Shown here piece by piece: positions 37,342-59,115 of a stretch of DNA of 64,000 nucleotides (the first letter of the stretch is position 1; the number at the start of each line of letters is the position of its first letter). This DNA comes from Moheibacter lacus (lineage in GTDB: Bacteria; Bacteroidota; Bacteroidia; Flavobacteriales; Weeksellaceae). The notes beneath the pieces were generated by a model that had not been told where the DNA came from, searched no databases, and was given only the letters and a program-made list of their open reading frames with translations. A program made the translations under genes and the position numbers. The stretch covers positions 62,001 to 126,000 of the forward strand of contig NZ_JACDZE010000004.1 in assembly GCF_014042165.1 (NCBI RefSeq), given 5' to 3'.

Positions 37342-37426
37342 GGAGAAATGGCAGAGTGGTCGATTGCGGCAGTCTTGAAAACTGTTGAGGGTAACACCTC
37401 CGGGGGTTCGAATCCCTCTTTCTCCG
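37342..37426 (+). tRNA. tRNA-Ser (anticodon UGA)
   Basis: The acceptor GGAGAAA (37342-37348) pairs with TTTCTCC (37419-37425), followed by discriminator G. The anticodon loop CTTGAAA holds TGA at 37376-37378. The long variable arm GAGG-GTAACA-CCTC is typical of tRNA-Ser. No CCA is encoded. Its 3' end is the likely attachment site of the element that follows. Confidence 0.96.
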
Positions 37427-37470
37427 CTGAATATGAAAAGCTAGACTTTTCAAAATCTTCTAAAATTTTC

Positions 37471-37700: not shown

Positions 37701-39047
37701 ATGTTAGAAAATAGTTTTGCAATATTATTCTTTTTAAAAAAGACTAAGAGAGAAACTCCCCATAGATTTATTTATTTGAGAGTTACAGTAGACGGAATTG
37801 CAAAGGAAATTTCGATCAAAAAGAAATGGAACGTTTCAAGATGGGATCAGAAAAGAGGAAGAGCAAGAGATAATAAAGAAGATGCGAAAGTTTTAAACTT
37901 TTATCTGGATTCTTTGGAATCTAAAATCATGATGTTCAGAGCTAAAATGGTTACTGAAAATAAAATTATTTATACAATTGACATCATAAATCACATAAAA
38001 GGAACAGACCGAAAGAAAAACTATGTTTTAATAGAATTTCAAAAGCATAATGACGAGATCGAAGCACTAGTCTCTTCCGAATATGCTCCCGGGACATTAG
38101 AGCGTTATAAGACTGCAAAATCACACTTAGAAGAATTCATAAGCCACAATTATAAAAGAGAGGATATCACATTCCATGAACTCGATTATGAATTCATAAG
38201 TGAATATGCAATTTATTTAAAAACGGTCAGGAAATGCAGTCATAATACCACTCTTAAATATATCAGTAATTTCAAGAAGATAGTATTGAGAGCAGTTGCT
38301 AAAGGAATTATCAACTCTGATCCGTTTATTCAATTTAAAATCAGGAAAGTAAAACTTAATAAACGACCACTCTCCTGGGAAGAATTACGGCGAATTGAAT
38401 CAAAAGAAATAACTAATGAAAGGTTAGCTATTGTAAGGGACATTTTTGTTTTTCAATGTTATACCGGTTTGGCGTACATTGATGTATTTAATTTAAAAAG
38501 ATCAGATATCAAGAAAGGCTCAAATGGTGAATTATGGATAATATCAAATCGGCAAAAAACCAATTCAGTCTCAGATGTGCCGCTCTTACCAAAGGCTATC
38601 CAAATTTTAGATAAATATAAGGATCATCCTTTCTGTAAAACTACTAATCAAGCTTTGCCGGTAAAGTCTAACCAAAAAATGAATGGATATTTGAAAGAAA
38701 TTTCTGCTATCTGTGGAATTGATAATGAACTTACCACTCATAAAGCAAGACGAACTTTTGGAAGTACTGTTACTTTGAATATGGGTGTTCCAATACATGT
38801 GGTCAAAGAAATGCTGGGACATCACTCTGTCAAACAAACTGAAGAATACGCAATTACTGAAAGTAAAACGATAAACAGAGAAATGAAGTTGCTTCAGAAG
38901 AGACTTGCTAAAGAGAAACGAGGCAATACCAAAGAATTTAAATATTTATCGGATGATATATTAAATTCGAATAAGAATGACGCATTAGGGAAACTTTGGA
39001 AATTAGAGCAGGAAATTCAAAGAATAAAAGAAGCAATTACTGATTGA
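37701..39047 (+). CDS. Tyrosine-type site-specific recombinase (integrase)
   Basis: A 448-residue integrase with an N-terminal arm-binding domain (FLKKTKRETPHRFIYLRVTV), a SAM-like core-binding domain (about 110-220) and a catalytic domain. Catalytic His and Arg are in TTHKARRTFGS, the second His in MLGHHSVKQTEEYA and the nucleophilic Tyr in EEYAI. In box I the usual arginine is replaced (CYTGLAYIDVFNL), as in CTnDOT-type Bacteroidota integrases. It should insert the element at the adjacent tRNA-Ser. Confidence 0.93.
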   Translation: MLENSFAILFFLKKTKRETPHRFIYLRVTVDGIAKEISIKKKWNVSRWDQKRGRARDNKEDAKVLNFYLDSLESKIMMFRAKMVTENKIIYTIDIINHIKGTDRKKNYVLIEFQKHNDEIEALVSSEYAPGTLERYKTAKSHLEEFISHNYKREDITFHELDYEFISEYAIYLKTVRKCSHNTTLKYISNFKKIVLRAVAKGIINSDPFIQFKIRKVKLNKRPLSWEELRRIESKEITNERLAIVRDIFVFQCYTGLAYIDVFNLKRSDIKKGSNGELWIISNRQKTNSVSDVPLLPKAIQILDKYKDHPFCKTTNQALPVKSNQKMNGYLKEISAICGIDNELTTHKARRTFGSTVTLNMGVPIHVVKEMLGHHSVKQTEEYAITESKTINREMKLLQKRLAKEKRGNTKEFKYLSDDILNSNKNDALGKLWKLEQEIQRIKEAITD

Positions 39048-39057
39048 GATGAGAATC

Positions 39058-39354
39058 TTATAATATTTGGATAAGGCTTTTTCCGGAAGGGTGATAGGAT
39101 GGGGTATAGTGAATTATGCCCAATTTCACTAGTTCTTTGATGTACTTATGATATGTAGGAATGCTTTTAATTTTTGAATGTTTCAAAAGTAATTTTCTTG
39201 TTATTACAATAGATTTTGCTGATTTTTGATTTAAACCTAATCTGGCTACTGCTATTAGTATTGTCAAGTGCCATATAGTAATTTCGGGATTATTTGACAC
39301 TGAGATTAGGTAAGTTATCCAATAGTGAGACAAGTAAACATTATTTTCCATCAA
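39058..39354 (-). CDS. Small winged-helix-like DNA-binding protein
   Basis: A 98-residue protein with helix-rich sequence (HLTILIAVARLGLNQKSAKS) followed by a wing-like region (YHKYIKELVKLGIIHYTPSY). This resembles small regulators next to integrases in Bacteroidota elements. It overlaps the upstream HTH gene by 14 bases, suggesting translational coupling and a shared role in excision or regulation. Confidence 0.65.
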   Translation of the reverse strand: MMENNVYLSHYWITYLISVSNNPEITIWHLTILIAVARLGLNQKSAKSIVITRKLLLKHSKIKSIPTYHKYIKELVKLGIIHYTPSYHPSGKSLIQIL

Positions 39355-39610
39355 AGAGTTTTAAAAGATCAGATTTGCTGTAGTAATAAGAACCTAAAAC
39401 TTTTTGATAACGAATTTTTCCGCTCGTCCTTAAATTCTGAAGTGTTCCGGGAGAAATGTTCAAAATCTTTCTAATCATTTTACTTCTGAGCCATTCTGTG
39501 TTTTCGTTATTTTCAGTATTTTCACTATGATAAGTTTGTAGTATTTTCTTAATGTCTTCAATTAAAGAAACGCGAAACTTTTCCAGATCATCATTAGTTA
39601 TATAGTTCAT
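39341..39610 (-). CDS. Excisionase-type helix-turn-helix protein
   Basis: An 89-residue protein whose C-terminal half is an HTH_17/MerR-like DNA-binding unit: MIRKILNISPGTLQNLRTSG then KIRYQKVLGSYYYSKSDLLK. Such proteins commonly act as recombination directionality factors or regulators in Bacteroidota elements. It is oriented opposite to the integrase. Confidence 0.8.
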   Translation of the reverse strand: MNYITNDDLEKFRVSLIEDIKKILQTYHSENTENNENTEWLRSKMIRKILNISPGTLQNLRTSGKIRYQKVLGSYYYSKSDLLKLFDGK

Positions 39611-39915: not shown

Positions 39916-41400
39916 ATGGGGATTAATATTGACATCAAAAAGAAAAAATTAATAGTATATTTTATATGTTATTTATATATCGTATTGTTTGTTTATGCAT
40001 CGGTTAGTAAGATACTCGAATTCCAAGACTTCCAAACCCAATTGGGGCAATCCCCAGTTTTGGGTGCGTTTGCCGTTCCGATTTCCTACGGGATTATTTT
40101 AATTGAAATGATGGTATCTATGCTTTTGATTTTTGAGAAAAGCCGTGTGGTAGGCCTTTATTTATCTTTTTTGCTGATGGTAATGTTTACGGCGTACATC
40201 GTCATTATTTTGAATTTCACCTCTTTTACTCCGTGTTCCTGTGGGGGCGTATTGGAAGATTTGGGGTGGACGGAACATTTGATTTTCAATGTGGTTTTTA
40301 TTCTTTTGGCCATTCTAGCATTGGTCAGTTTAGTGGATAATATCAGGCCAATAATCTTTAAAATAACAGGATTGTTTTTATTTGGGATAAGCTTAGTTGC
40401 AGTGTTATATGGTTTATCCGAAAAAGAAATCAAAAGAAACAATGCCTTTCAACGGAAGTATATCCCGCATAGATTGGAAGAATTAGGTAGTTTCCCATTG
40501 GAATCCAATGCTTTTTATATAGCAGGAATTGATGATCAAAACATTTATTTAGGAAATTACAATGCTCCGCTGTATCTAAAAGTCATCCGTCGGGATTTGA
40601 GAGCTTCAGAGCTTATAAAAATTGAGATTGAAAACTACAACTTACCCTTTAAACGTATCAAAATCCACGTGCAGATTCCCTACTTTTTTATAGGAGACGG
40701 AACGGTGCCCGTGTTGTTGCGAGGCAAAACAAGCGACTGGAAAGGTGAAGTTTTTTCAAAAGGTGAAGCTTATTTTTATGATTTTCAGGTGCTGGATTCC
40801 AACCAAATACTTATCAGTACAACCCGTACAAAATCCCAAGCCAATGTTTTGGGGATTCTGCGCAAAAGAAACAACACGGTCGATTTAATACTGAGCGATT
40901 CCATATTAAAGTCTCAAATAGATGGAACCTTTGATACCGATGGAGATTTGTTATGGAATGCTCCCATGAATCAAATGGTGTTTGTCTATTATTACCGCAA
41001 TCAATTTGAAGTAGCCAATAAACGTCTATCCTTTCTATTTACAGGTAAAACTATTGACACAATTTCGCGTGCTCAGATTGATGTTGGCTATTACAAAAAG
41101 GAGAATGTATATAAATTAGGAAAGTCAACCCTAGTGAATAAAACCAGTTCTGTTTGGGGAAATCATCTTTATATAAACAGTGAGCGTTTGGGGAAATATG
41201 AAAATGAAAAGGTATTGAAATCAGCCGGAATTATTGATGTCTATGATTTGAACCGAAAGGAATACCGACACAGCTTTTATTTCTATCATCAACGGGATCA
41301 GAAACTCAAAGAATTCAGGGTGATAAAAGATACCATCATTGCAATCGTAGAGGATCAGTTATGGGTACAAAAGATAAAACCTGAATATTTCGCAGATTAA
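39916..41400 (+). CDS. MauE/DoxX-type membrane protein with large C-terminal extracytoplasmic domain
   Basis: Five hydrophobic spans fill residues 12-166, with a MauE-like loop FTSFTPCSCGGVLEDLGW holding two cysteines (107 and 109). MauE proteins act in disulfide chemistry outside the cytoplasm. Residues about 185-494 have repeating strand patterns with IAGIDDQNIYLGNYNAPLYL and similar blocks, suggesting a beta-propeller. It lies 133 bases upstream of the DUF6520 peptide gene, so it may oxidise or handle that peptide; this is inference. Confidence 0.8.
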   Translation: MGINIDIKKKKLIVYFICYLYIVLFVYASVSKILEFQDFQTQLGQSPVLGAFAVPISYGIILIEMMVSMLLIFEKSRVVGLYLSFLLMVMFTAYIVIILNFTSFTPCSCGGVLEDLGWTEHLIFNVVFILLAILALVSLVDNIRPIIFKITGLFLFGISLVAVLYGLSEKEIKRNNAFQRKYIPHRLEELGSFPLESNAFYIAGIDDQNIYLGNYNAPLYLKVIRRDLRASELIKIEIENYNLPFKRIKIHVQIPYFFIGDGTVPVLLRGKTSDWKGEVFSKGEAYFYDFQVLDSNQILISTTRTKSQANVLGILRKRNNTVDLILSDSILKSQIDGTFDTDGDLLWNAPMNQMVFVYYYRNQFEVANKRLSFLFTGKTIDTISRAQIDVGYYKKENVYKLGKSTLVNKTSSVWGNHLYINSERLGKYENEKVLKSAGIIDVYDLNRKEYRHSFYFYHQRDQKLKEFRVIKDTIIAIVEDQLWVQKIKPEYFAD

Positions 41401-41533
41401 TATATTCCTTTTTTTCCTTGTTCCTAGATAATAGAATGGATGACAAAAATAAACTAAAGATATAGTGTGCACTTCAGGAGTAAGACCGAATACCTGTATA
41501 AAATAGTAGGTCATCATTTTAAAATTAACACGT

Positions 41534-41800
41534 ATGAAAACAAAAATTTTCAAAACAGGACTGCCTATTATGGCATTTTTGATGGCTATTGCGTTTGCAT
41601 TTGCAACGGAAACAAACGTGAAGGGAGAAGCTCCCTTGATCACAGGGTATGTAATCCAGAACGGAGTCTGTACATCGGCTCCGAAAGATTGTGTGGTTGA
41701 TGCAAGATATGATTGCAAATACATGGGCTTGCAGGTTTATAATCTTGAAGATGGTGAAACAACTTGCAGGGTAAAACTCTTTCAGCATACACCTAATTAA
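41534..41800 (+). CDS. DUF6520 family secreted small Cys-containing protein
   Basis: An 88-residue protein with a signal-like hydrophobic N-terminus (KTGLPIMAFLMAIAFAFA) and a short mature part with four cysteines at 46, 53, 61 and 78 (YVIQNGVCTSAPKDCV, YDCKYMG, TTCRV). It matches the DUF6520 family as I know it. The function is unknown. The four Cys suggest two disulfides or a modified peptide. A strong terminator follows. Confidence 0.8.
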   Translation: MKTKIFKTGLPIMAFLMAIAFAFATETNVKGEAPLITGYVIQNGVCTSAPKDCVVDARYDCKYMGLQVYNLEDGETTCRVKLFQHTPN

Positions 41801-41807
41801 TTTTTTG

Positions 41808-41832
41808 AAGGAGCGAAATTTTTCGCTCCTTT
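41808..41832. terminator. Bidirectional terminator between the DUF6520 and S9 genes
   Basis: AAGGAGCGAA (41808-41817) pairs with TTCGCTCCTT (41822-41831), with T/A-rich flanks on both sides. Confidence 0.85.
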
Positions 41833-44387
41833 TACTTTAGATAGTGGTTAAACCAACTCATCACTTCCTCTGACAGGTCTTTTTGATTTTCCAACTTATC
41901 TACAGAATGAGGTTCGTTGTTAAAAAGAAGTAGTTTTCCTTCTTTATTTAGTCTTTTCATCGCCATAAATAAATGAACGGATTGTGTCCAGTTTACGTTT
42001 CCATCCTCTTTTCCAGCCCAAAGCAAAAGTGGTGTTTTTAATTCTTCTATACTTTGTAACGCCGAATTTTCATTGTACTGCTTTTTCGCTTCAAAATAAG
42101 ATTTTCCCATTCTGAATTGCTTATTTTCAATTCTCCATATCTGCTCTCTTTTGAAATCCCATGATATATCCAAATAATAAATACCTAAATCGGTAACGGG
42201 AGCTCCGGCCACGGCCGTTGCAAACATATCTGATTTTGTCGCTATATAGGTCGCCTGATAACCTCCATATGAATGTCCGATTAAACCGACTTTTTTTGGG
42301 TCAACGGGATAAGTTTTCAATGCTTTTTTTACAGCGTTTTCTACATACAGAAGGGATGATTTTGCAGGGTTTCCTTTTTCATATTTAATCGTCGGCATCA
42401 GCACAAAGTATCCGTTTGTAAGATAATTAACTAAATTAAAGCCGGTTCCTTCATAAATTGTCGGACTCATGTAGCGCATATCAAAAGTATTTACAGCTTC
42501 ATATATTTTCACAATCATCGGGTACTTCTTTTGGGGATTATAATTGGAAGGAAAGAAAATTAGTCCCTCCAATTCGTTGTTGTCAGATTCCTTATAGTGG
42601 TAAAATACATGTTTCCCCAAATCAAATTGGAGTAGCCCGGGATTGCTTTGATAGAGTTCTTTTGTTTTGTGGTTGGATAAATCAATACTATGGAGGGATG
42701 GGGGCAGGTTGAATTTACTTTTTTTATAGATCAGCAAAGACTGATTAGAAGATAACGTTAAATCTTCCGTCAGTGCTGACCCATATACTAAATCCACTAT
42801 TTCGTTTTTATCCCAAATGCTGATTCCTGTTTTCAAATCATGCCCCGTCCTGTCGAGTATTATTTTTCTGGATTTTGGATTGTAGGATACACCTGTGCTT
42901 TCACTTAATAAGGATAAATATTTAGAATCGTGCCGGTCTACATCGCGGTTGATTCGGTATTTCATTTTGGAAGACCTTCCGTTGGTTCGTTTTTTATGGG
43001 TATTGTTTCCGGTATCTAACAACCATATGTCATATTGGTCGTAAACAATCAGATATTTTTCATCTTCTATCCATCCGGGTGATCCAAAGGGAAGGTCGAA
43101 TTCTTCTTGGGAAAAAGGAAATGGTAGTTCGGACGTCAAATTCTTTTTTTTCTTTTTTCTCACATCATATAACCACCAATGATGGTCCGAAAAGTATGCA
43201 ATAAAATTTCCGGAGGGTGAAATTGAAATAAGACCAGGATGTACCGATTGCTTCTCTATAATTTTTTCCTTTTTACCACTTGAAAGGTGTAAGAGATAGA
43301 TATCTGACTCCGGAAAATATTTGTATTGCGGCTCGTAGTCCAATTTGTTGTAAACCAATGCGATTTCGTGATTTTTATTCAATTGGTAAGATGAAAAGAT
43401 GGAATCCGTTATAGGAGATACATTTTTTGTCTCAGTCTGCCATAGCGTTAGGAAAAATTTTCTCTCATAGCTGTTGAATTCATTCATCTGAGGAAAAATC
43501 CACGGATCCGATGTGTCCCAGACTTCCATGTCTTTTTCTTTCGTTTTTTTGTCCGGATTGGTCTTTAGACTTCTGAAAAAGAAAACCTTTTTCCCGTCTT
43601 CTGAAATTTCAAGCTTTTTATCAGAAATGGAAAAATCCTTAAAGTGTCGATTTATCTCTGCATCAGTAAGTATGCGGGTCTGATTGTTTTGGCAAAGGAG
43701 GATGGAGTTGCTTTCTTTTTGCTTTAAAAAACATCCCATAGCATTTCCCGAATCATTCCAAACACAACCTGCTATATTTTCGGAATTACTTATGAAAACA
43801 GAATTATTTTCCCGCTCATGGATTGAGTACCGTGTTAATTCCTCTTGGTTTTCAGATTGAGACAGCGTGACCCAAGTATCTTTTTGCGGGTTTATGAAAT
43901 AGTCCTTTACGTTTTCTATTTCATTTGTCTGGTTTGTAGTCCCATCAAAAAGCAAGAGGGAATTTTGATTTCCTCTCTTGCTCAATGCAATTATATGGTC
44001 TTTTTTGTCGAAATGAAATTTTATAACCTTTTCTAACCTCACCTGATGATGGTTGTTCAGATTTTGAATCAAAAGCGTACTGTCTTGGGAAAGAGATGCA
44101 AAGTACTGACTGTTGGAGGAAAATGCATGCATGTAGCTATCGCTTATATCCCAGTTCGTCAAATCCTGCACATTCAATAATGTAATCTTAGGCGGTTTAA
44201 GGTCATAAACTTCCGAGAAAACCATCCATTTCCCATTTTCACTATTGCTTTGGACGTAAATGTTTTTACTCCAAAGCGAATCAAATTTACTATGGTAGGT
44301 TTCCAATTTTTTTGAATTATCCTGTGCTCCAATTTGAACTCCCAGAATCAAAATCAGAAGTTTTATGATAAAAAATTTATTTCTCAT
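41832..44387 (-). CDS. S9 family (prolyl oligopeptidase-like) serine peptidase
   Basis: An 851-residue secreted peptidase with a signal peptide (KFFIIKLLILILGVQIGAQ), a long WD-like beta-propeller (about 30-590) and a C-terminal alpha/beta-hydrolase domain. The catalytic Ser is in IGHSYGGYQATYIA, the Asp in WAGKEDGNVNW and the His in NNEPHSVDKLE. It is last in the minus-strand susC-susD-S9 run, so it may trim peptides imported or exported by that pair. Confidence 0.92.
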   Translation of the reverse strand: MRNKFFIIKLLILILGVQIGAQDNSKKLETYHSKFDSLWSKNIYVQSNSENGKWMVFSEVYDLKPPKITLLNVQDLTNWDISDSYMHAFSSNSQYFASLSQDSTLLIQNLNNHHQVRLEKVIKFHFDKKDHIIALSKRGNQNSLLLFDGTTNQTNEIENVKDYFINPQKDTWVTLSQSENQEELTRYSIHERENNSVFISNSENIAGCVWNDSGNAMGCFLKQKESNSILLCQNNQTRILTDAEINRHFKDFSISDKKLEISEDGKKVFFFRSLKTNPDKKTKEKDMEVWDTSDPWIFPQMNEFNSYERKFFLTLWQTETKNVSPITDSIFSSYQLNKNHEIALVYNKLDYEPQYKYFPESDIYLLHLSSGKKEKIIEKQSVHPGLISISPSGNFIAYFSDHHWWLYDVRKKKKKNLTSELPFPFSQEEFDLPFGSPGWIEDEKYLIVYDQYDIWLLDTGNNTHKKRTNGRSSKMKYRINRDVDRHDSKYLSLLSESTGVSYNPKSRKIILDRTGHDLKTGISIWDKNEIVDLVYGSALTEDLTLSSNQSLLIYKKSKFNLPPSLHSIDLSNHKTKELYQSNPGLLQFDLGKHVFYHYKESDNNELEGLIFFPSNYNPQKKYPMIVKIYEAVNTFDMRYMSPTIYEGTGFNLVNYLTNGYFVLMPTIKYEKGNPAKSSLLYVENAVKKALKTYPVDPKKVGLIGHSYGGYQATYIATKSDMFATAVAGAPVTDLGIYYLDISWDFKREQIWRIENKQFRMGKSYFEAKKQYNENSALQSIEELKTPLLLWAGKEDGNVNWTQSVHLFMAMKRLNKEGKLLLFNNEPHSVDKLENQKDLSEEVMSWFNHYLK

Positions 44388-44396
44388 TTCAAACTA

Positions 44397-45800
44397 TTAA
44401 TACCCTTCGTTTTGAGGTAAAAGGTTTGGGTTCAACAAAATTTCAGATTCGGGTACAGGAAGTAAGATATCTGTTGGACGCCAAGAAGGTTTAATCGGAG
44501 ATAACACGGCATCTGCTTTATTCAATCGTTTTAAATCAAACCAACGGTGTCCATGTTCCGAAAAAAGTTCGGATTTTCTTTCACGGTATATTGATTCCAA
44601 AACTTCTTCGGCACTGCCTGAAGTAATTTCAGGCAAACCTGCCCGGCTTCTGATTTTATTCAGGTCGAAGAGAGCAGAAGATAAATTTCCGAGGTGCGCA
44701 TGGGCTTCCGCTCTGATCAGGTATTGTTCAGCCAAACGAAAGACGATGGAATATTCAACTGTAGTACCTGTATTTCCGGATTGTTTGTATTTGTATGGCA
44801 TGTACCAAATTTGATTATCGTCTGTTACTGAATTGATCCAGGATTGCTTTCGTAAATCTCCTTCTTCAAATGAATTTATAAATGCCTCATTCAGCGCAAA
44901 GGAACTTGGAGGTCCTTGCTGAAAAATAAAAGAAATCGCTTCATGGGTATTTTGTCCTGCGTTACCCGGTTTGAGTTGGAGAATAGCGGAGGTGCTTTCT
45001 TTTAAGAATTCATTTTCTATATTCGATTCCAGTATAAAAAATGAAGATTCATTTAGAAGGAGCGAACTTTCATTAACAGCACTTTGCCATTCTTGATTGT
45101 ATAGGTATACTCTGGCTAAAAGTGCAGAAGCCACAAACGAAGTCGCTCTGGTTCGTTCCCCGTTCAGATCGTTCGAAGGAAGCAAACTTTTGGATAGGAG
45201 TAAATCCTCTTTGATTTGTAGATACACTTCGTTGGCATCCTGCCGAGAGACATCCTGATTCATCTCATAATCTGTCTGTGTTATGTAGGGAATCTTTCCA
45301 AAAAGGTTTGTCAGGTAAAAATGCGTTAAAGCTCTAACGAATAATGCCTCACCCATTAATTGATCCTTTAGCTCCGTGCTGAGATGTACGGAGTTCTGTA
45401 GACCTTCCATTACAGAATTGCACATATAAATCAGCTCATAAGATCGTTTCCAAATGTTGAGTACCAAGCTGTTGGATGCAATGATCTGGTGTCTGTAGAA
45501 TGTTTCAATAGGTTGGCCTGAGGAACCGTAATAATCCAATTCATCTGCATAGAGTCCCATCAGAACGTTCATTCCCTCAATTCTTCCGGTCAAAAGCGTA
45601 TTGTCCCTTAGTTTAGTGTAAAGGGTTGTTACTGCCGCTTCCGCTGTATGAGGATCTTCAAAAATCTGGCTTTGCGTGATTTGACCGTTTGGCGCAGGAA
45701 CATCTAAAAATTCTTCACAAGCGGAGAGAAAAAAGAATAGAAAAACCATTCCGTAGGTTGGTTTTACTGTTGCTATGATTTGTAGTATTGTATTTTTCAT
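44397..45800 (-). CDS. RagB/SusD family outer-membrane lipoprotein
   Basis: A SusD-like nutrient-binding lid protein of 467 residues from the ATG at 45800. The lipobox is LSAC in MVFLFFFLSACEEFLDVP. TPR-like helices follow and the family ending ERKSELFSEHGHRWFDLKRL is intact. A longer frame to 45857 overlaps the susC stop and gives no signal peptide. It lies 10 bases behind susC and partners with it. Confidence 0.94.
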   Translation of the reverse strand: MKNTILQIIATVKPTYGMVFLFFFLSACEEFLDVPAPNGQITQSQIFEDPHTAEAAVTTLYTKLRDNTLLTGRIEGMNVLMGLYADELDYYGSSGQPIETFYRHQIIASNSLVLNIWKRSYELIYMCNSVMEGLQNSVHLSTELKDQLMGEALFVRALTHFYLTNLFGKIPYITQTDYEMNQDVSRQDANEVYLQIKEDLLLSKSLLPSNDLNGERTRATSFVASALLARVYLYNQEWQSAVNESSLLLNESSFFILESNIENEFLKESTSAILQLKPGNAGQNTHEAISFIFQQGPPSSFALNEAFINSFEEGDLRKQSWINSVTDDNQIWYMPYKYKQSGNTGTTVEYSIVFRLAEQYLIRAEAHAHLGNLSSALFDLNKIRSRAGLPEITSGSAEEVLESIYRERKSELFSEHGHRWFDLKRLNKADAVLSPIKPSWRPTDILLPVPESEILLNPNLLPQNEGY

Positions 45801-45810
45801 GTGATTGATT

Positions 45811-48786
45811 TTATAATTCGAGTTTAAATCCAAAAGTAAATTGTCTGAGAGGAGCAAGAAAGCCCGGATTTTGTTCCGGATCCCGTCCTTTGAATCGGGT
45901 AAGGGTCAATAGGTTATATCCTTGTGCAAATAGCGTCAGTTTGTAAGCTGTCTCTTTTTGAGTAGGAATCGAATAAGCGATGTTGAGTGACTTTAGTCTG
46001 ATAAAAGAAGCATCTGATACTGCGGCATTGCTAATGCTAAAGAGGTAATGCGCAAAGTAAGCATCGTAATTTTCTCCTGTCGTATAAGGCTGGATGGGAT
46101 TTTGGTTTAGAATTCCTGCGGGTTGGTTCCGCATCAGTCCCGGTGGTTCGGTTCCGTAAAACTCATTGAAATTATCCTTTTTCATGAACTGTAAAAAGAA
46201 ATTTAGTTTCAGATTTTTATATTGGAAGTTATTCTCTATTCCACCATAGAATTTAGGATTGAGATCTGCGATGTACTGTTGGTCACCCAGTGAACTGATC
46301 TCGCCATCTCCGTCGTAATCCCTGAAATCATAGAATCCGGTTTCCTGATTGATTCCTGTTAATTCATACAGTTTATAAATCCCGATGGGATAACCAATTT
46401 CCAGTGAATTGATGTAAGTGGAATTTTCGAGTCCTTCAAAGGAAATGAGTTTATTTTTTGGCAGGGTAAATTGAAAAGAAGTAGACCAGTTAAAGTTTTT
46501 GTTCTGAATGTTTCGGGTTGTGAGCATAAATTCCCAACCTGAGTTGCGAACCGTTGCATCCAGATTGGAATTGATGCCTGCAAAACCGGTAGTGACGGGT
46601 AGGGGAATTTCTAAAAGCTGATTGTCCGACGTATTGTTGTAATAATTGATTTCAAACCGCACGCGATTGGAGAACAACTCAGATTCAAGGGCAACTTCGA
46701 ATTTCCGGTTCTTTTCCCATGCATAAGAGGGATTATACAAGCGGGTAGGGGAAAGTGCAATGTTTCCGTCATAATTGGCAGATCCTATGCTGTACGTATT
46801 GAGATATTGATAATCTCCGATCTGGTCATTTCCCGTGATACCGTAACTGGCTCGGAGCTTTGCAAAATTTAACCAACGAAGATCTTGGAAAAAATGCTCT
46901 TTTGAAAAAATCCAGGCCGCACCTACAGCACCGAAATTGGAAAAGCGGTTGTCGGGTCCAAAACGGCTGGAGCCGTCCCTTCTTCCGGAAAGATTCAGGA
47001 TGTATTTCTGATTCAGGTTGTAATTCAACCGGGCGTAAAAAGCGATGTAGTTGTACTGAGCGGTTTGATCCGTGAGGATGTTGATTTCAGAAGCGGCACC
47101 CAAATCCCTGATGAATTCATTGCTGATAAAATTTGCACCCAGGATAGACAGTCTTTCGCTGTTTTGTTTTTGAAGGGTTCCTCCCACCAAAAAATCAAAT
47201 TTCCCTTTGCCCAACTGAAAGGAGGAATTGATCTGCGGTTCGATGATCCAGGAATCTCTTTGCCCTCTGTTATCAAAGATGCTGGAAAAGGAGCTGTCAT
47301 ATCCCCATGCAGGATTGAACATCGTATGAGGAGAAGTACGGGTTTCTTGTAAATCAGCATGGGTGTAACCAAAACTGGAACTAATGCTAAGTGCTTTGAA
47401 GAGTTCGTATTGAATACGCGCATTGGCAGACAGATTATTGGATTTGTTGCGGTATTCACTTTCCATTGCGGCAAGGGGATTTTCCCATGTTGAATCTTCC
47501 CAATTCAGATTTCCTTCACTGTCATACAAGGCCGGAGCATTCGGCGGGAGGTAAGTCGATATCCATGTAAGATCAGTTGCCGGCAGATAGTTTTGATCCT
47601 GCCCGAAATTTCCTGTAAACTGAAGATGGAGTTTATCGTTTTTAGATCGGTGACTGACCGAAGCATAAAATGCCAGATTTTTATAATTATAATGCCCCGG
47701 AAAAACGGTTGTTTCTTTTCGGATGCTATTGCCAATTTTAAAAAAGGTCTGTTCGCTGCCTCCTGAAACCGCAGTATTCAAGGTGTTGATAAAAGCAGTA
47801 CCGCCTAAGAATTCCTTTTGCCAGTCCGTATATCGATCCCTATCCCATGTTCCGTTTACGTCATAGGCCGTAGCCGGATATTCCGAATACCCATCGTTTA
47901 AAAAGGCCTGTTCCCTTACCGATAAGTATTCCTGTGTATTTAATAATTTCTGAAACTTGATAAGACGAAGCACCGAAGTAGAAGCATTTACGCTGAATTC
48001 CGTTTTTCCGGACTTCCCTTTTTTAGTGGTGATCAGAATGACCCCATTGGCACCACGTGAACCGTAGATGGCTGTCGCATCTGCATCTTTGAGTATTTCA
48101 ATGGATTCGATTGAACTTGGATCTAGGGTATTCAGCGGATTTATTTGTGCATCAGGCAAGACGGAACCCGAAGTTTGCCTATCGGAAAGCGTACCTGTAT
48201 CATACGGAACTCCATCTATTACATACAGTGGTTCATTTCCGGCTGATATGCTATTTTGTCCACGAATTCGTACGGTGTAACCACCTCCGGCTAAACCGGT
48301 TGTCTGAACAATGTCCAATCCCGGAACGCGACCCTGCAATGATTCCAGAATATTGTTGACCGGTTGTCTTTCTATTTCCTCTGCTGATACCCGATAAATA
48401 CTCCCCGTCCTTTCCTTATCTTTTACAGTATAATAACCGGCATTGATCACGGCTTCCTGCAAGGCGACTGCCTCATACATTTCAATGTTGATGGCCGTTT
48501 GGTTACCAACCACAGCTTCCACCGGTTCATAATCGGGATAAGTAAACACCAGGGTGTCTGATTCCGTTGTCGAAATAGCATACGTACCGTCTTCATTGGT
48601 GACGGTAGCAAGATTCGTTCCTTTGACAAGAACAGAAACGCCCGGGATAGGGCCGCCGGCATCATAAACGGTTCCGGTAATGATCTTGGGAGGTTGTTGC
48701 GCCGAAGCGAGTGAGCACAAGGTCATAAGGACAATAAGTAGGTGCCTCGGCACAATTCCCTTCCCGTTTAATAGTTTGATTTTCAT
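45811..48786 (-). CDS. SusC/RagA family TonB-linked outer membrane protein
   Basis: A 991-residue TonB-dependent transporter. It has a signal peptide (LLIVLMTLCSLASA), an N-terminal carboxypeptidase-regulatory-like domain (ITGTVYDAGGPIPGVSVLVK), a plug domain with GGYTVRIRGQNSISAGNEPL and VLITTKKGKSG, and a long barrel ending RQFTFGFKLEL. The substrate is unknown. The pairing with SusD and an S9 peptidase suggests peptide or oligopeptide handling. Confidence 0.95.
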   Translation of the reverse strand: MKIKLLNGKGIVPRHLLIVLMTLCSLASAQQPPKIITGTVYDAGGPIPGVSVLVKGTNLATVTNEDGTYAISTTESDTLVFTYPDYEPVEAVVGNQTAINIEMYEAVALQEAVINAGYYTVKDKERTGSIYRVSAEEIERQPVNNILESLQGRVPGLDIVQTTGLAGGGYTVRIRGQNSISAGNEPLYVIDGVPYDTGTLSDRQTSGSVLPDAQINPLNTLDPSSIESIEILKDADATAIYGSRGANGVILITTKKGKSGKTEFSVNASTSVLRLIKFQKLLNTQEYLSVREQAFLNDGYSEYPATAYDVNGTWDRDRYTDWQKEFLGGTAFINTLNTAVSGGSEQTFFKIGNSIRKETTVFPGHYNYKNLAFYASVSHRSKNDKLHLQFTGNFGQDQNYLPATDLTWISTYLPPNAPALYDSEGNLNWEDSTWENPLAAMESEYRNKSNNLSANARIQYELFKALSISSSFGYTHADLQETRTSPHTMFNPAWGYDSSFSSIFDNRGQRDSWIIEPQINSSFQLGKGKFDFLVGGTLQKQNSERLSILGANFISNEFIRDLGAASEINILTDQTAQYNYIAFYARLNYNLNQKYILNLSGRRDGSSRFGPDNRFSNFGAVGAAWIFSKEHFFQDLRWLNFAKLRASYGITGNDQIGDYQYLNTYSIGSANYDGNIALSPTRLYNPSYAWEKNRKFEVALESELFSNRVRFEINYYNNTSDNQLLEIPLPVTTGFAGINSNLDATVRNSGWEFMLTTRNIQNKNFNWSTSFQFTLPKNKLISFEGLENSTYINSLEIGYPIGIYKLYELTGINQETGFYDFRDYDGDGEISSLGDQQYIADLNPKFYGGIENNFQYKNLKLNFFLQFMKKDNFNEFYGTEPPGLMRNQPAGILNQNPIQPYTTGENYDAYFAHYLFSISNAAVSDASFIRLKSLNIAYSIPTQKETAYKLTLFAQGYNLLTLTRFKGRDPEQNPGFLAPLRQFTFGFKLEL

Positions 48787-53387: not shown

Positions 53388-53903
53388 TTATACTAATTTA
53401 GGATTTCCAGAAATAATCTCAATTGCTGAATTTTTAAAATCTCCATCATTTGTAAGAAGCACCATATCGTTTTCTTTGCATAAAAGAGTTGTTGCCTTAT
53501 CAACAAAATCAATATCCTCAATATTGAAAAAACTTTCTATTTCTTTTTGGCTGTATCCTTTAGAAGCAATATCAATAACTTTTAGAATGTTATCTTTTAA
53601 TATGATATGTATATCATTTAAAGCATTTTTTCCAACTTCGCTGTTGCGAAAATCTTTAAAATTTTGAGTGGAAGAAATTTTTTGATGTTCAATCCTAAGA
53701 ATTCTATTTATTATTTCGGAAATTATAAAAATATCCACAAACAATTTATTTTTTTGTACAAGAAAATTTTTGAAAACTTTTGCATAGCTCATTTCAAAAT
53801 TATGCTGTCCTGTTGGCCAAAACAAGTATATAATAACATTTGCATCAATAAATATACTTCGTTCAGCTAGTTTGTTAAATTCATGTAGCTTATACCTTGA
53901 CAT
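53388..53903 (-). CDS. PIN-domain protein
   Basis: A 171-residue predicted ribonuclease. PIN acidic residues are Asp20 in SIFIDANVIIYLF, Glu in IFIISEIINRIL, Asp in IEDIDFVDKATTLL and Asp in VLLTNDGDFKNSA. It is last in a minus-strand run behind HATPase and STAS-like genes, only 2 bases from the STAS-like gene, so it is probably the effector of that unit rather than a stand-alone VapC. Confidence 0.85.
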   Translation of the reverse strand: MSRYKLHEFNKLAERSIFIDANVIIYLFWPTGQHNFEMSYAKVFKNFLVQKNKLFVDIFIISEIINRILRIEHQKISSTQNFKDFRNSEVGKNALNDIHIILKDNILKVIDIASKGYSQKEIESFFNIEDIDFVDKATTLLCKENDMVLLTNDGDFKNSAIEIISGNPKLV

Positions 53904-53905
53904 AA

Positions 53906-54253
53906 TTAGTCTTCTAAAATGTTTTTTATACTTTCATCTAAAGCCTCAGGATTTTGGTAATATAATTTAGCCGTGTCAACGACACGTTTTAAAGAAATCT
54001 TCCCAGCGTCCGATAAATCCGAAACATTGAAGTTAGCTTTAATCTGCTCTTCGCTGAAATCCTTATATAATTGTCCGATTGCAGTATTTAAAAATGCAGT
54101 AGTAAGCATTTCTATATTTAAAAATGAAACTACAACTTTGTGTCCTGCGTCTAAGGCTTTTTTTATAAGCTCATGAATTTTTTGACCATCTTCAGCTTCA
54201 ACGCCATAAGAATCGCCAATAGTATTTATTACACTTATATTTATTGTTTCCAT
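53906..54253 (-). CDS. STAS-like (DUF4325) domain protein
   Basis: A 115-residue protein with the STAS-like pattern: strand INISVINTIGDSYGVEAEDG, helix QKIHELIKKALDAG, strand KVVVSFLNIEMLTTAFLNT and a following helix region. Such proteins are often paired with GHKL ATPases. I use the ATG at 54253, one base after the upstream stop; an in-frame ATG at 54268 is also possible. Confidence 0.8.
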   Translation of the reverse strand: METINISVINTIGDSYGVEAEDGQKIHELIKKALDAGHKVVVSFLNIEMLTTAFLNTAIGQLYKDFSEEQIKANFNVSDLSDAGKISLKRVVDTAKLYYQNPEALDESIKNILED

Positions 54254-54254
54254 T

Positions 54255-55115
54255 TTAGAATATATCATTTATATTAACTTCACTGACAAGAGAGTAATTT
54301 GTCAAATCATTAGTTTTAAATTGCAAATTTACAATAGTTCCGGGGAATTCGCCATTAAATACAGCAGTTTCTATGCCATTTTGACCATATTGATAGAAGC
54401 CATCTCCACTTATTATTTGCATTTTACCTTTGTTTAAAGTGACAAATTCTTTCAAAATAGCCAATCCTATACCTCCAGTGATGCCTTGTTTAGTAGTGTT
54501 TTTATCTTCGACAGCCCACTTTATAGCATTTACTGATGAGAGATTTGAGCCAAAGCGACGATTTACTTTTTCTTTAAAACCTATACCAACGTCAACTACA
54601 GTAAATTCTATTGTATTTTTAATTGGGAAGAATTGACCACACGTGTAAATAAATTCAGATTCACTATGGATTTGAGCATTTACAAAAATTTCATAAATAG
54701 CTTCAATAATTTTATCTTTTGCCCCTTCGGTCATCTGAGGTAAATCATTTTGGTGACCGTCAATTAATTCTTCAAGAACGTATTTTTTGAAAAATTTACC
54801 ATCAGTTGGTTTTAATTTCTGATATTTAATCGTTGTGTTGTTAAAATCAGTTTCTCTATGTTTTCCATAATATGATAGAAAATCATTTTTTAATAAGATT
54901 TGTTCAACTCTTGGAGTAATATAGTCAAAATGTATATCATTAAAGTCGTCAATTAGTAGATCTAGTATGGCTCCTAAAGCCGAACTCATATTAGCGGCAA
55001 AGAAAAAACTCAATTCCAAATGAACGTCTTGAAATGATTTATCTTTATTAAATTGATAAAATGTTATTAAAGACTGGAAACTTGAGAATGTATTGTTAAT
55101 TGAATTTAATCTCAC
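54255..55115 (-). CDS. GHKL-type ATP-binding protein
   Basis: A 286-residue cytosolic protein whose C-terminal half is a histidine-kinase-like ATPase domain: N box EIFVNAQIHSE (142-152), G1 DVGIGF (175-180) and G2 GITGGIGLAI (211-220). There is no membrane segment, dimerisation His or receiver, so it is not a classical sensor kinase. An anti-sigma-like kinase/switch acting on the STAS-like partner is plausible from family knowledge. Confidence 0.85.
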   Translation of the reverse strand: MRLNSINNTFSSFQSLITFYQFNKDKSFQDVHLELSFFFAANMSSALGAILDLLIDDFNDIHFDYITPRVEQILLKNDFLSYYGKHRETDFNNTTIKYQKLKPTDGKFFKKYVLEELIDGHQNDLPQMTEGAKDKIIEAIYEIFVNAQIHSESEFIYTCGQFFPIKNTIEFTVVDVGIGFKEKVNRRFGSNLSSVNAIKWAVEDKNTTKQGITGGIGLAILKEFVTLNKGKMQIISGDGFYQYGQNGIETAVFNGEFPGTIVNLQFKTNDLTNYSLVSEVNINDIF

Positions 55116-55172
55116 TCTTTAAAATTGTACACAAACATACTAAAAAGAAGATTAATTATTATTTTAAAGGGA

Positions 55173-55418
55173 TTATTTTATATTATAAAGCCAAGGAGGG
55201 TTTGAACCAGTTATTTCCCTATAAGTATTAAGATCAACAAATTTATGTTCTAGAATAACAGAAGCTAAAATCGCATTTGGAAAAGTTTTTTTCACTAATT
55301 CTATAGCTTTATTTTTAACTATATTAGGATCATAATTTCCAGCGCCCGTAATAGTTACAATTTCTGAGCTTTTGCCATCAATAATAACATTAACTAAATC
55401 TACATAGTATTCTTTCAT
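55173..55418 (-). CDS. Small protein of unknown function in the defence-like operon
   Basis: An 81-residue mixed alpha/beta protein (MKEYYVDLVNVIIDGKSSEI, IELVKKTFPNAILASVILEH). No motif is recognised. It lies between the 196-residue protein and the HATPase on the same strand. Confidence 0.55.
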   Translation of the reverse strand: MKEYYVDLVNVIIDGKSSEIVTITGAGNYDPNIVKNKAIELVKKTFPNAILASVILEHKFVDLNTYREITGSNPPWLYNIK

Positions 55419-55443
55419 TTTTTATCTATTTTATATTTCAAAA

Positions 55444-56034
55444 TTACTTTATGAATTCAAATGAGCTATTAATCTCAAAATCGGTTATGTAGTAGTCATC
55501 ATTAAAAAATAAACCATTTATATAATGTTTGATGGGATGATATAAATCCTTAGGATACTCTCCAAATAATAATTTATCATAGGTATTTGCTATGCTAAAT
55601 GAAGTAGAATTTTTCCCTCGTCCTTTCTTTAAAAATCCAACTTTTGAAAGAAACCTTGTGATTTTGTGTTTTTCAATTCCCTTTTCGGGGTGGTCAGTTA
55701 CCAGAAAATAATCTTTAACATAAAAAGTACGTATATTACTTAGTGAATTATGCAAATTATTTTTGTAATCCTCAAGGCTTAATTTTTTTAAGTAAGATAC
55801 ATCCACTAACTCACATTCTGCCCTAATTACCTTATTCATGTCAATAAAATAATCTCCATCTACTAATAGCATCATTTTATGGCGGTAAATTCCTAAAATC
55901 ATTTCATTAATTTCCTCTTCTGAGTAATCTGAAATATTTTTAGAACGTCCGAATTTTTCTAGTGCTAAAAAACTTCCTCGGTTTTTGTAAACTTTGTCAA
56001 TCAATTCTTTTCTGACTTTTTTTATTGTTTCCAT
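55444..56034 (-). CDS. Unknown protein following DUF6119
   Basis: A 196-residue basic protein with helix-rich N-terminus (KVRKELIDKVYKNRGSFLAL) and a middle region KHKITRFLSKVGFLKKGRGK that could bind nucleic acid. No family is recognised. It is 10 bases downstream of the DUF6119 gene, so co-translation is likely. Confidence 0.6.
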   Translation of the reverse strand: METIKKVRKELIDKVYKNRGSFLALEKFGRSKNISDYSEEEINEMILGIYRHKMMLLVDGDYFIDMNKVIRAECELVDVSYLKKLSLEDYKNNLHNSLSNIRTFYVKDYFLVTDHPEKGIEKHKITRFLSKVGFLKKGRGKNSTSFSIANTYDKLLFGEYPKDLYHPIKHYINGLFFNDDYYITDFEINSSFEFIK

Positions 56035-56044
56035 GCTGGGATTT

Positions 56045-57826
56045 TTATTTATCTATCTGAGTTATTTGAAATTCTATACCTAAATTTCTCATATTCTTAG
56101 CCAATTCTGTAAGCATAAATTTTGCAATGTTGGATTCAAATTTTTCTATGTTCGTAAATAAATCTCGTTTCTTTTTTGAAGAATCAGCTACAGCTAACAC
56201 AATAACAACTTTTTTATTTTTAATTTTGGCTATGAACTGCTTCTTAGATAATTTATCAAACTGTTTTTTTGCCCTTATAGTGTAAGGTGATTTACCTTTA
56301 GAATTGGCTACACTGTCGTATAGAGATTCTAAAAACTCATAATTGGACTTTACGTCTTCATGGATTTTCCTTCCAGCGATATAAACTTGGTTGCATAAGT
56401 CACGCATGGAATTATCAAAACCTTTTTTCACATGGTAGAAATACAAAGTATCTTTTTCAACATTTAAAATGTCACAAGCTTCAATATTTAAACTTGTAAA
56501 CCTATCAAATACGTACATATTATCTTTACCAAGATAGGAAGCATTATAATCATTTTCTTCACCTCCGTTCCATTTTAGCATTTTTTTTCCACTGTATTTA
56601 TTTTCACTTAAAAAAAACTGTGTTTGTTCGTTTATCTTTTTTATAAAAGATTCTTTTACAACGTACCAATCTTTTTCAATTAGAAAGTAAGTATTACCCT
56701 CATGAATAATTTCTGCGCAAAAATGATTGATTAGTTTATCACGGGTAAGTGTGTTGCCATCTTCATCAAAAGTTTCTAAATAAGTGTTTTTAATAACTTT
56801 TTTAAATGGTTCGTAATCTAATTCTTCTTCAATTTCAATTTTTAATTGCTTAATTATCGTTTCTATATTTCTAATTACATCATCTATATTAAATGAGTTA
56901 GATCTTTTATCATAAGTGAAGGTCAGAGTAGAGGAAGTAGCCTGAAAATATTTCTCGAAATCTCTATTACTTATTTCCACACTAAAATGCTTATTTTCAT
57001 CTAAGTAATTTTGAAAAATGTTTTGTAATACTTCGTTTATAAGAGTTTCTTTTAATAGATCTTCTGATCTACCAATTTTTTCCACACTATTTATTTCAAT
57101 TCCTTTCTTTTTTAATAGCGATTCACATTTTTCAATGACATTTAAAAGTTGAGAGAATGATATAGATTTTTTAATAGAAAATGAATTTTTAGCAATACAC
57201 AAGCTATTTGCATCTATTTCGGAAGGTTTGAATCCAAAAGCTTTTGTAAGAATATCCTTATTTAAGGATGCGTTTAATTCATTATATATTTTACCGAAAT
57301 TTTCATTTTCATATAAATTATAATCATTTCTAAAAAATTTAATTTCTCCCTGAATACCTCCAGTCAAATTTCTTTCCTTCGTTGATTTCAATGCCTTATC
57401 TTCTGATTTAACAATCTTTGATAAAATTTCAATTCCGAAATCATTTGTTGCAATTTCTTGAACAGTTATATGAGCGTAACCGCCTGTAGAAGCATATATT
57501 TTTTTTGTGGAAATATTCTGAAATAAAATTATATAGCTTTCTGATTTAGATTTATTTAAATTGAGAATGTCTTCCCCTTCTAAAGCAACAGAATTAATAA
57601 ACTCTTTCCATTTAATATCTCGTACAGATTGCTTGTAAAATAGTCTTATTTCATACTTTTCGCTTAAATTACCTTTCACTTTTTGTTCTCTAAATTTTTT
57701 AGATTTGAGAAATGTGGAGAGATACTTTAAGTCTATTGTTTTTGTAGATATTTTTCTTGTTTTGGTATTACGATCTTTTAATTTATCCTTAATTAAATAG
57801 ATATTGTTTTGTATTTTTTCTGACAT
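56045..57826 (-). CDS. DUF6119 / TIGR04141-type sporadically distributed protein
   Basis: A 593-residue protein with the recognisable layout of this family: an N-terminal block up to about residue 120, YASTGGYAHITVQEIATNDFG, RNLTGGIQGEIKFF, a central region with CDILNVEKDTLYFYHVKKG, and a C-terminal PYTIRAKKQFDKLSKKQF with VVIVLAVADSSKKKRDLF. The family occurs patchily, often near restriction or phage-defence genes. Its biochemical role is unknown. It heads a minus-strand run ending in the PIN gene. Confidence 0.8.
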   Translation of the reverse strand: MSEKIQNNIYLIKDKLKDRNTKTRKISTKTIDLKYLSTFLKSKKFREQKVKGNLSEKYEIRLFYKQSVRDIKWKEFINSVALEGEDILNLNKSKSESYIILFQNISTKKIYASTGGYAHITVQEIATNDFGIEILSKIVKSEDKALKSTKERNLTGGIQGEIKFFRNDYNLYENENFGKIYNELNASLNKDILTKAFGFKPSEIDANSLCIAKNSFSIKKSISFSQLLNVIEKCESLLKKKGIEINSVEKIGRSEDLLKETLINEVLQNIFQNYLDENKHFSVEISNRDFEKYFQATSSTLTFTYDKRSNSFNIDDVIRNIETIIKQLKIEIEEELDYEPFKKVIKNTYLETFDEDGNTLTRDKLINHFCAEIIHEGNTYFLIEKDWYVVKESFIKKINEQTQFFLSENKYSGKKMLKWNGGEENDYNASYLGKDNMYVFDRFTSLNIEACDILNVEKDTLYFYHVKKGFDNSMRDLCNQVYIAGRKIHEDVKSNYEFLESLYDSVANSKGKSPYTIRAKKQFDKLSKKQFIAKIKNKKVVIVLAVADSSKKKRDLFTNIEKFESNIAKFMLTELAKNMRNLGIEFQITQIDK

Positions 57827-57914
57827 GTTTTGTAGTTGAGGCGTTAATAGTAGATTATCAAATGTATTAAAAAATATTAATTATGCTATACTAATCAAAT
57901 TGTTTATGAGTAGA

Positions 57915-57930
57915 TTACGGGAAACCGTAA
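57915..57930. promoter_or_regulatory. GAAA-capped hairpin between divergent genes
   Basis: TTACGG (57915-57920), GAAA, CCGTAA (57925-57930), between the DUF6119 and HNH genes. It is a candidate operator or leader hairpin. Confidence 0.4.
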
Positions 57931-57956
57931 AGCCTTAAAATTTTTAATCTTATTGT

Positions 57957-57964
57957 TATATTTG
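57957..57964 (+). promoter_or_regulatory. Predicted -7 element of the HNH gene
   Basis: TATATTTG, 19 bases before the start codon. No clear TTTG at the matching distance. Confidence 0.45.
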
Positions 57965-57983
57965 AGCTTCCAGTAAATATCTA

Positions 57984-59093: not shown

Positions 59094-59115
59094 GATATTA
59101 TAAAGATTTGAGCTC

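Follow-up and report, generated by a model that had tools for sequence, protein, structure and literature searches.

Whether a SusC-SusD pair may be dedicated to a peptide encoded beside it is the question raised by a locus of Moheibacter lacus (Flavobacteriales, Weeksellaceae); such pairs are mostly regarded as nutrient importers, and many of them have no known substrate. The stretch analyzed here (the window) comprises 64,000 nucleotides of contig NZ_JACDZE010000004.1 (RefSeq assembly GCF_014042165.1, positions 62,001 to 126,000 of the forward strand). On its plus strand a gene for a fusion of a MauE membrane domain with a beta-propeller precedes a gene for a small DUF6520 peptide, and the two face a separate convergent operon SusC-SusD-S9, encoding a TonB-dependent transporter, its lipoprotein partner and an S9 peptidase, on the minus strand. 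An initial annotation of this DNA, made from the letters alone, had placed a four-cysteine peptide next to a MauE-propeller protein with a CxC loop and had it converge on SusC/SusD and the S9 peptidase. Both statements were borne out: all the genes are where they had been placed, with Pfam matches over the cut-offs, and S9 with SusC-SusD forms a convergent operon of its own, the stop codons of the peptide and S9 genes lying 31 bp apart. The gap contains an inverted repeat, possibly a terminator shared by both operons, which the terminator scan did not list. In this work we have analyzed the conservation, parts and surroundings of this module, showing that the grouping is real and conserved far above chance. 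All of its parts belong to known families, and together they are compatible with a secreted peptide whose disulfides are formed by oxidation and which is then imported and opened.

Conservation of the grouping

Two sets of loci were compiled. Set A holds the 80 loci nearest to the window fusion (the best 80 of at least 590 confirmed matches) and set B 64 loci from 296 sampled genomes of the order, any match at all being seen in 54 of these genomes; set B comprises 62 full-length fusion matches and two split ones, the window included. The sets overlap in five groups and were merged by identity over part of the fusion protein to give 137 distinct loci. A DUF6520-type peptide gene was found in all 144 fusion loci (80/80 in set A; 63/64 by script in set B and 64/64 after locus L168 had been read by eye). 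The peptide has four cysteines in 137 of the 144 (135 by script, the window and L168), the remaining seven having two (L199-L202), three (L150) or six cysteines (L198) or a truncated peptide (L185). Convergent SusC and SusD genes accompany it in 75/80 loci of set A and, within 10 kb, in 58/64 of set B, and an S9 gene in 75/80 (the truncated S9 of L075 and L106 counted) and 57/64, respectively. After merging, 127 of the 137 distinct loci have the convergent SusC-SusD pair and 126 an S9 match. Five of the ten loci without the pair end at contig ends (L015, L057, L080, L180, L182) and three are split by insertions (L081, L190, L191), with S9-SusD-SusC found further along in the stretches L222 for L190 and L219 for L191; the last two are L075 and L106, with truncated S9 remnants. 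The insertion in L190, between the peptide gene and the receptor operon, encodes M14 and M36 peptidases.

The arrangement is strongly directional. The 65 set A loci flanked on either side by at least 9.5 kb serve as an internal control: within that distance SusC is found downstream in 63 of them and upstream in one. The median gap between the fusion and peptide genes is 82 bp (132 loci). Searches in the reverse direction gave a similar picture. In the 296 genomes of the order 58 of 63 DUF6520 matches are located within 1.5 kb of a MauE match; of the remaining five, four are embedded in reading frames of at least 350 codons and one is L211. For the S9 family (111 matches at E 1e-60 in the same genomes, with at most three candidates scored per genome), 32 of the 34 matches of at least 550 bits lie within 2 kb of a MauE match, the two exceptions being L208, a second operon of the window genome, and the match of genome G127 (L209), beside which no SusCD was seen. 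These counts contradict the possibility, named by the initial annotation as the one that would speak against its proposal, that DUF6520 and MauE genes occur mostly without SusCD or S9 neighbors.

In 103 distinct loci of the 144 (those with any of the five genes short or absent, with more than one peptide, or with a cysteine number other than four being dropped), the pairwise distances of propeller, S9, SusD and SusC correlate at 0.75-0.87. The distances of the mature peptide correlate weakly with those of the other genes (0.28-0.34), at values above all 200 shuffles for propeller, S9, SusD and SusC alike.

Parts of the module and their variants

The MauE domain of the fusion protein matches PF07291 at 104.8 bits (cut-off 27). 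In the AlphaFold2 model its long helices span residues 7-34, 50-72, 74-101, 118-139 and 143-174, and a PCSCGG motif is located between the third and the fourth. This motif is invariant across the 62-row fusion alignment (A3) and was found by script in 141/144 loci; two of the three script-negative loci carry it in a separate MauE reading frame, and the third is L198. A cytoplasmic N-terminus, judged from charged residues rather than computed, would place both the PCSCGG loop and the propeller in the periplasm. The propeller-like character that had been ascribed to the C-terminal domain was confirmed by structure prediction, which returned a confident beta-propeller (mean predicted local distance difference test score, pLDDT, of the whole model 91). 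Its best solved matches are NHL propellers and the Bacteroides DUF4221 protein 3s9j, which tie at Z 18.9 (for 3s9j with a root-mean-square deviation of 4.1 over 295 aligned residues); a profile comparison of the window propeller with one DUF4221 protein gave no match. The structural alignments listed for the fusion all fall on the propeller and do not cover the MauE part, and the protein had no match in the plasmid collection. In locus L225 MauE, peptide and propeller are encoded by three separate genes in that order, and the fusion may therefore be a derived state.

The window peptide matches PF20130 at 52.4 bits (cut-off 25.4) and consists of a signal-like N-terminus followed by a mature part of about 63 amino acids with cysteines at residues 46, 53, 61 and 78. 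All four are invariant in 109 aligned peptides, a set selected for having four. Counted after the signal in 158 peptide matches, cysteines number four in 144, two in eight, six in four, and three and one in a single peptide each. The eight two-cysteine peptides, contributed by two locus groups (L199-L202 and L205-L206), are without C1 and C4 in every case and retain C2 and C3. This joint loss implies that the disulfides would pair C1 with C4 and C2 with C3. The L150 peptide has lost C1 alone, and SusC of the same locus is in two pieces, which together would fit decay. Several loci contain two peptide genes, and L103 and L107 have five DUF6520-type genes in tandem per module, one gene with six cysteines. 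For the predicted structure of the peptide (mean pLDDT 77.5) no solved relative was found at E 0.001.

Purifying selection acts on the mature peptide among close relatives. Pooled nonsynonymous change (Nd/N) was 0.038 against synonymous change (Sd/S) of 0.208 in 32 of the 36 pairs compared, and the fusion protein gave similar values (0.047 against 0.266); the pairs are not independent and come from few lineages, each with a single four-cysteine peptide and a full-length fusion. The highest ratios of a single pair for the mature peptide were 0.58 and 0.53. As change is mostly silent, the gene is a constrained one, nothing at short range points to an arms race, and runaway positive selection on the peptide was rejected on these values. 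Distant copies are strongly diverged (mean mature distance 0.72).

The receptor genes form a regular SusC/SusD pair: SusC reaches 683.5 bits with TIGR04056 (cut-off 368.25) and adjoins a protein matching SusD_RagB and SusD-like_3. The closest solved SusC by sequence is 8aa4, and RagA structures are also among the matches listed. In the S9 peptidase the catalytic serine (S706) and aspartate (D795) are invariant and the histidine (H827) is nearly so in 24 aligned rows (A4), as expected of a catalytically competent enzyme. Assignment to the lasso isopeptidases (NF033523) was rejected at 85.6 bits against a cut-off of 400. The gene after SusD usually encodes S9, and its place is taken by a Met-zincin in L056, L203, L205 and L206 and by a thioredoxin-like protein in L197. 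All three appear suited to opening a disulfide-bonded peptide, and the occupation of one slot by two unrelated peptidase families or a thioredoxin-like protein is the strongest clue that the peptide would be opened. The Flavivirga loci L065, L068 and L078 have the peptide gene upstream of the fusion gene; in L065 FecR and sigma-70 genes lie past SusC, and L068 has genes that look similar.

A related arrangement was found with MauE proteins that lack the propeller. From 30 hand-picked loci with MauE-type matches, L205-L207 among them, one (L226) proved to be without MauE and was dropped. In the remaining 29 a signal-bearing peptide with a Cx3-9C core is encoded within 900 bp downstream of MauE in 23 and upstream in one, and SusC or SusD is located nearby on the opposite strand in 24. 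Two of the loci negative for the peptide by script, L238 and L244, each contain a short frame in which two cysteines lie close together. The Cx3-9C core would match the C2-C3 pair of DUF6520 peptides. Among the 24 loci with SusC/SusD, 20 have a thioredoxin-like protein (assigned by similarity to six reference proteins so named by Pfam) and two a Met-zincin. These loci belong to the order itself or to further families of its class, and the three MauE loci from the wider phylum (L227, L228, L243) are without SusCD and peptide. Of the five loci without SusC/SusD nearby, these three and L240 also lack the peptide, and the fifth, L241, which is considered below, has one.

Receptor operons occur without MauE as well. 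The second S9-SusD-SusC operon of the window genome (L208; G000:C1:832000-850000) adjoins a 64-amino-acid frame whose end matches the C3-C4 half of the L010 peptide from the same genus; the score of 65 exceeds the maxima of 48 among 200 shuffles and 36 among 63 other small frames. A profile search, unlike this pairwise test, was not significant, and the frame is a probable peptide relic. In a further receptor operon (L221) neither MauE nor a peptide was found in the stretch read. The stretch L220 (G259:C1:4990000-5008000) has a row SusC-SusD-thioredoxin-like-S9-M16, in which no MauE or peptide was found and which looks like a peptide-uptake operon with related enzymes.

Island carriage and neighboring genes

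The window module is situated on an island inserted at a tRNA-Ser gene, about 102 kb long, or 115 kb when a second repeat is counted. A tyrosine recombinase adjoins the tRNA, and further copies of a 19-mer from the tRNA 3' end lie at G000:C8:201539 and 214664, at neither of which ARAGORN found a tRNA; the 19-mer occurs at three places in all, in forward orientation only (reverse 0, control 0). The island contains one relaxase (PF03432). Phmmer relatives of the two small proteins of 98 and 89 amino acids encoded between the integrase and the fusion gene are found upstream of the module in L015. Coordinates are collected in the table.

Table. Features of the M. lacus window described in this work (positions within the 64,000-nucleotide window)
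Feature	Position	Strand	Evidence or remark
tRNA-Ser (TGA)	37342..37427	+	ARAGORN, Rfam; attachment site of the module-carrying island
Tyrosine recombinase (island integrase)	37701..39047	+	Pfam Phage_int_SAM_5, Phage_integrase
Two small genes (98 and 89 amino acids)	39058..39610	-	the second (89 amino acids) matches Pfam HTH_17, 3e-9
MauE-propeller fusion (494 amino acids)	39916..41400	+	Pfam MauE; AlphaFold2 mean pLDDT 91
MauE membrane domain, five helices (residues 1-175)	39916..40440	+	AlphaFold2 model
PCSCGG (CxC) motif (residues 106-111)	40231..40248	+	loop before the fourth long helix
Beta-propeller domain, NHL-like (residues 180-492)	40453..41391	+	predicted structure and structural matches
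DUF6520 peptide (88 amino acids)	41534..41800	+	Pfam PF20130
Inverted repeat between the convergent operons	41811..41830		read straight from the sequence
S9 peptidase (851 amino acids), signal-like N-terminus	41832..44387	-	Pfam PF00326; Ser706/Asp795/His827
SusD-like lipoprotein	44397..45803	-	Pfam SusD-like_3, SusD_RagB; LSAC lipobox by eye
SusC-like TonB-dependent transporter	45811..48786	-	Pfam; TIGR04056

A single-sequence search of the available flanks, with labels checked against Pfam, detected conjugative-element markers (relaxase, coupling protein, TraG ATPase, topoisomerase, ThiF, RteC) or relatives of the window integrase and HTH genes in 46/80 loci of set A and 44/63 of set B (without the window), and in 7 of a subset of twenty from the 30 hand-picked loci. 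The fusion is present in two of six genomes of the genus, two of the others being just 76-81% complete. These observations suggest that the module often travels on integrative elements.

Ten window proteins (37.7-50.6 kb) were scanned against Pfam and NCBIfam. No carbohydrate-active enzyme family was found among them, and the locus was rejected as a polysaccharide utilization locus. Further along the island, after the module, genes at 53388-59829 encode PIN, DUF4325 STAS-like, HATPase, DUF6119, HNH_4 and NERD proteins, which look like a cluster of possible defense genes.

Peptide, importer and opener: weighing the readings

From the observed parts, their order, the exchange of the third enzyme, purifying selection and island carriage we infer a course of MauE-assisted oxidation, exit from the cell, uptake by SusC-SusD and opening, and with it the identity of the ligand and the purpose of the system. 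The DUF6520 protein, given its signal-like N-terminus, would leave the cytoplasm by the Sec route and be processed by signal peptidase I. The periplasmic MauE domain, acting via its CxC loop, would help to set the C1-C4 and C2-C3 disulfides, while the fused propeller may hold the peptide or scaffold its oxidation. The peptide would then reach the cell surface and be the ligand, or the carrier of a ligand, of the SusC-SusD pair encoded opposite, and the imported form would be opened by the third enzyme, S9 in the window and a Met-zincin or thioredoxin-like protein in sister loci. Its likeliest use would be that of a secreted carrier which is re-imported and opened to free a cargo or nutrient. 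We give this course of events, with the re-imported carrier as its likeliest form, a chance only slightly short of even. The broader proposal, of a class-wide and often element-borne family in Bacteroidota in which a Sec-secreted peptide with one or two MauE-made disulfides is paired with its own SusC-SusD and a locus-specific opener and serves as carrier, private signal or weapon, is held somewhat more tentatively.

Several observations weigh against the re-imported carrier. None of the module genes was found to encode an outer-membrane exporter, and in PMC7794033 an oxidant role of MauE is a matter of speculation, made for methylamine dehydrogenase. The correlation of peptide distances with those of the other genes disappears once the latter are held constant (partial correlation -0.002 to 0.08), and nothing here points to a co-adaptation of peptide and receptor that goes beyond their common history. 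Parts of the module also occur apart from each other: L075 and L106 keep a truncated S9 remnant without SusC-SusD in the stretch read, L241 has MauE and a peptide with no SusC/SusD in reach, in L211 the peptide gene neighbors SusCD and a thioredoxin-like protein but MauE is absent, and in L224 (G293:C11) SusC-SusD-S9 converges with a 115-amino-acid four-cysteine peptide, without a Pfam match, alongside which no MauE was found. The opener slot is empty in the three Flavivirga loci, and just 20 of 61 S9 matches of 400-550 bits lie within 22 kb of a MauE match, which indicates that the wider S9 family also serves elsewhere.

Four other explanations have been considered. That unrelated genes were gathered by chance on a mobile island agrees with the location of the window locus on such an island, but the same convergent order in 127/137 distinct loci and the asymmetry of SusC (63/65 against 1/65) refute it, and chance grouping was rejected as extremely improbable. 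Carriage by mobile elements bears more on the possibility that the peptide is an element-borne bacteriocin acting on module-free cells, with SusCD-S9 importing and destroying it and so protecting the carriers. The markers in the flanks of 46/80 and 44/63 loci are what would be expected of it, as are the patchy distribution within the genus (two of six genomes, with two of the six 76-81% complete) and the receptor operons without MauE, one of them with the probable relic (L208), which resemble orphan immunity. However, selection on the mature peptide is purifying, not diversifying, at the Nd/N and Sd/S values given above, no dedicated bacteriocin exporter was found among the module genes, and a thioredoxin-like protein substituting for the peptidase would be an odd immunity factor; we regard a toxin as unlikely. 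A pheromone sensed through SusCD uptake, ended by the opener and driving upstream regulators or transfer of the element is about equally improbable. Where upstream genes were scanned, DUF7793 and AraC genes were found in L081 and L077, TPR-AraC and RteC in L014 and AraC in L056; a gene of L080 has a sub-threshold response-regulator match, FecR and sigma-70 genes follow SusC in L065, and the elements carrying the module are of conjugative type. The types of regulator, however, differ from locus to locus, and in the window no AraC-type regulator was found between the integrase and the fusion gene, and no STN signaling domain is listed by Pfam for SusC.

An accessory role, in which SusCD-S9 takes up environmental peptides and the DUF6520 peptide, together with MauE, serves this transporter in the periplasm as a helper or redox carrier and never as its ligand, appears less likely still. 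Thioredoxin-like partners would suit a redox relay, the lack of any exporter found in the module poses no difficulty for it, L220 combines SusC-SusD with thioredoxin-like, S9 and M16 proteins without MauE or peptide, and a SusCD locus of Flavobacterium collinsii with S9 and other peptidases has been assigned to oligopeptide uptake (PMC10132118). The strong divergence of the peptide, the five-peptide arrays of L103 and L107 and the exchange of S9, zincin and thioredoxin-like protein are, however, read more easily if the peptide is the substrate that is opened.

Of the systems described so far, the lasso cluster with receptor and isopeptidase comes nearest to this combination of peptide, TonB-dependent receptor and opener. 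In lasso clusters (AtxE2/SpgE type; PMC11006600) a peptide operon likewise stands beside an opposite-strand TonB-dependent receptor and an S9-like peptide-opening enzyme; a siderophore-like role has been hypothesized there for loci of lasso peptide, isopeptidase and receptor, and the solved relatives of the window S9 family include the lasso isopeptidase AtxE2. Lasso operons are divergent, whereas those of the module are convergent, the module peptide is of the Sec type with presumed disulfides, its receptor is SusC-SusD rather than a lone receptor, and its opener may be a zincin or thioredoxin-like protein. No cyclase, leader peptidase or other lasso biosynthesis family was found among the ten scanned window proteins, and a lasso cluster was rejected on this ground. 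In Streptomyces, MauE homologs beside cysteine-rich precursors have been proposed by decRiPPter as modifiers of ribosomally synthesized and post-translationally modified peptides (PMC7794033). These families share with the module a small cysteine-rich precursor beside a MauE homolog and differ in precursors with at least eight cysteines; SusCD, a propeller or an opener are not mentioned in the passages concerned. RagAB and BT2263-2264 are SusC-SusD pairs importing peptides, as proposed for the module, and the passages of PMC10132118 that cite them mention neither a self-encoded peptide nor MauE.

The likeness to NVEALA loci of Bacteroides, which the initial annotation had seen in the layout, held in one respect. 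Locus L255 pairs a small secreted cysteine-containing NVEALA peptide with DUF4221 and DUF5128 propeller proteins, and DUF4221 is the fold that ties for best structural match to the window propeller. The likeness ends there: NVEALA (PF14055) was not listed for the window peptide at E 0.1 with Pfam or NCBIfam, profile comparisons of peptide and propeller gave no relation to those of NVEALA loci, and neither MauE nor SusCD nor S9 was found in L255 and L256, both from one NVEALA-rich genome. Membership of the window peptide in this family was rejected; NVEALA matches occur in 3/296 genomes, with one above the cut-off. A description of the module was not found in the open-licence PubMed Central literature, the longer result lists of which were covered in part, so that this is no proof of its absence from print; no paper on DUF6520 or NVEALA was found there either.

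If the proposed course is true, a SusC-SusD pair would be reserved for a peptide that the cell makes itself and not for food, and the encoding of a candidate substrate beside its importer would offer a rare ligand that can be tested genetically. The module would point to a role for DUF6520 and connect MauE with disulfide peptides, and the exchange of peptidase for thioredoxin-like protein in a single slot gives a direct handle on the mechanism. Should the peptide be a carrier, signal or toxin, the module would represent an unrecognized means of interaction spread by integrative elements.

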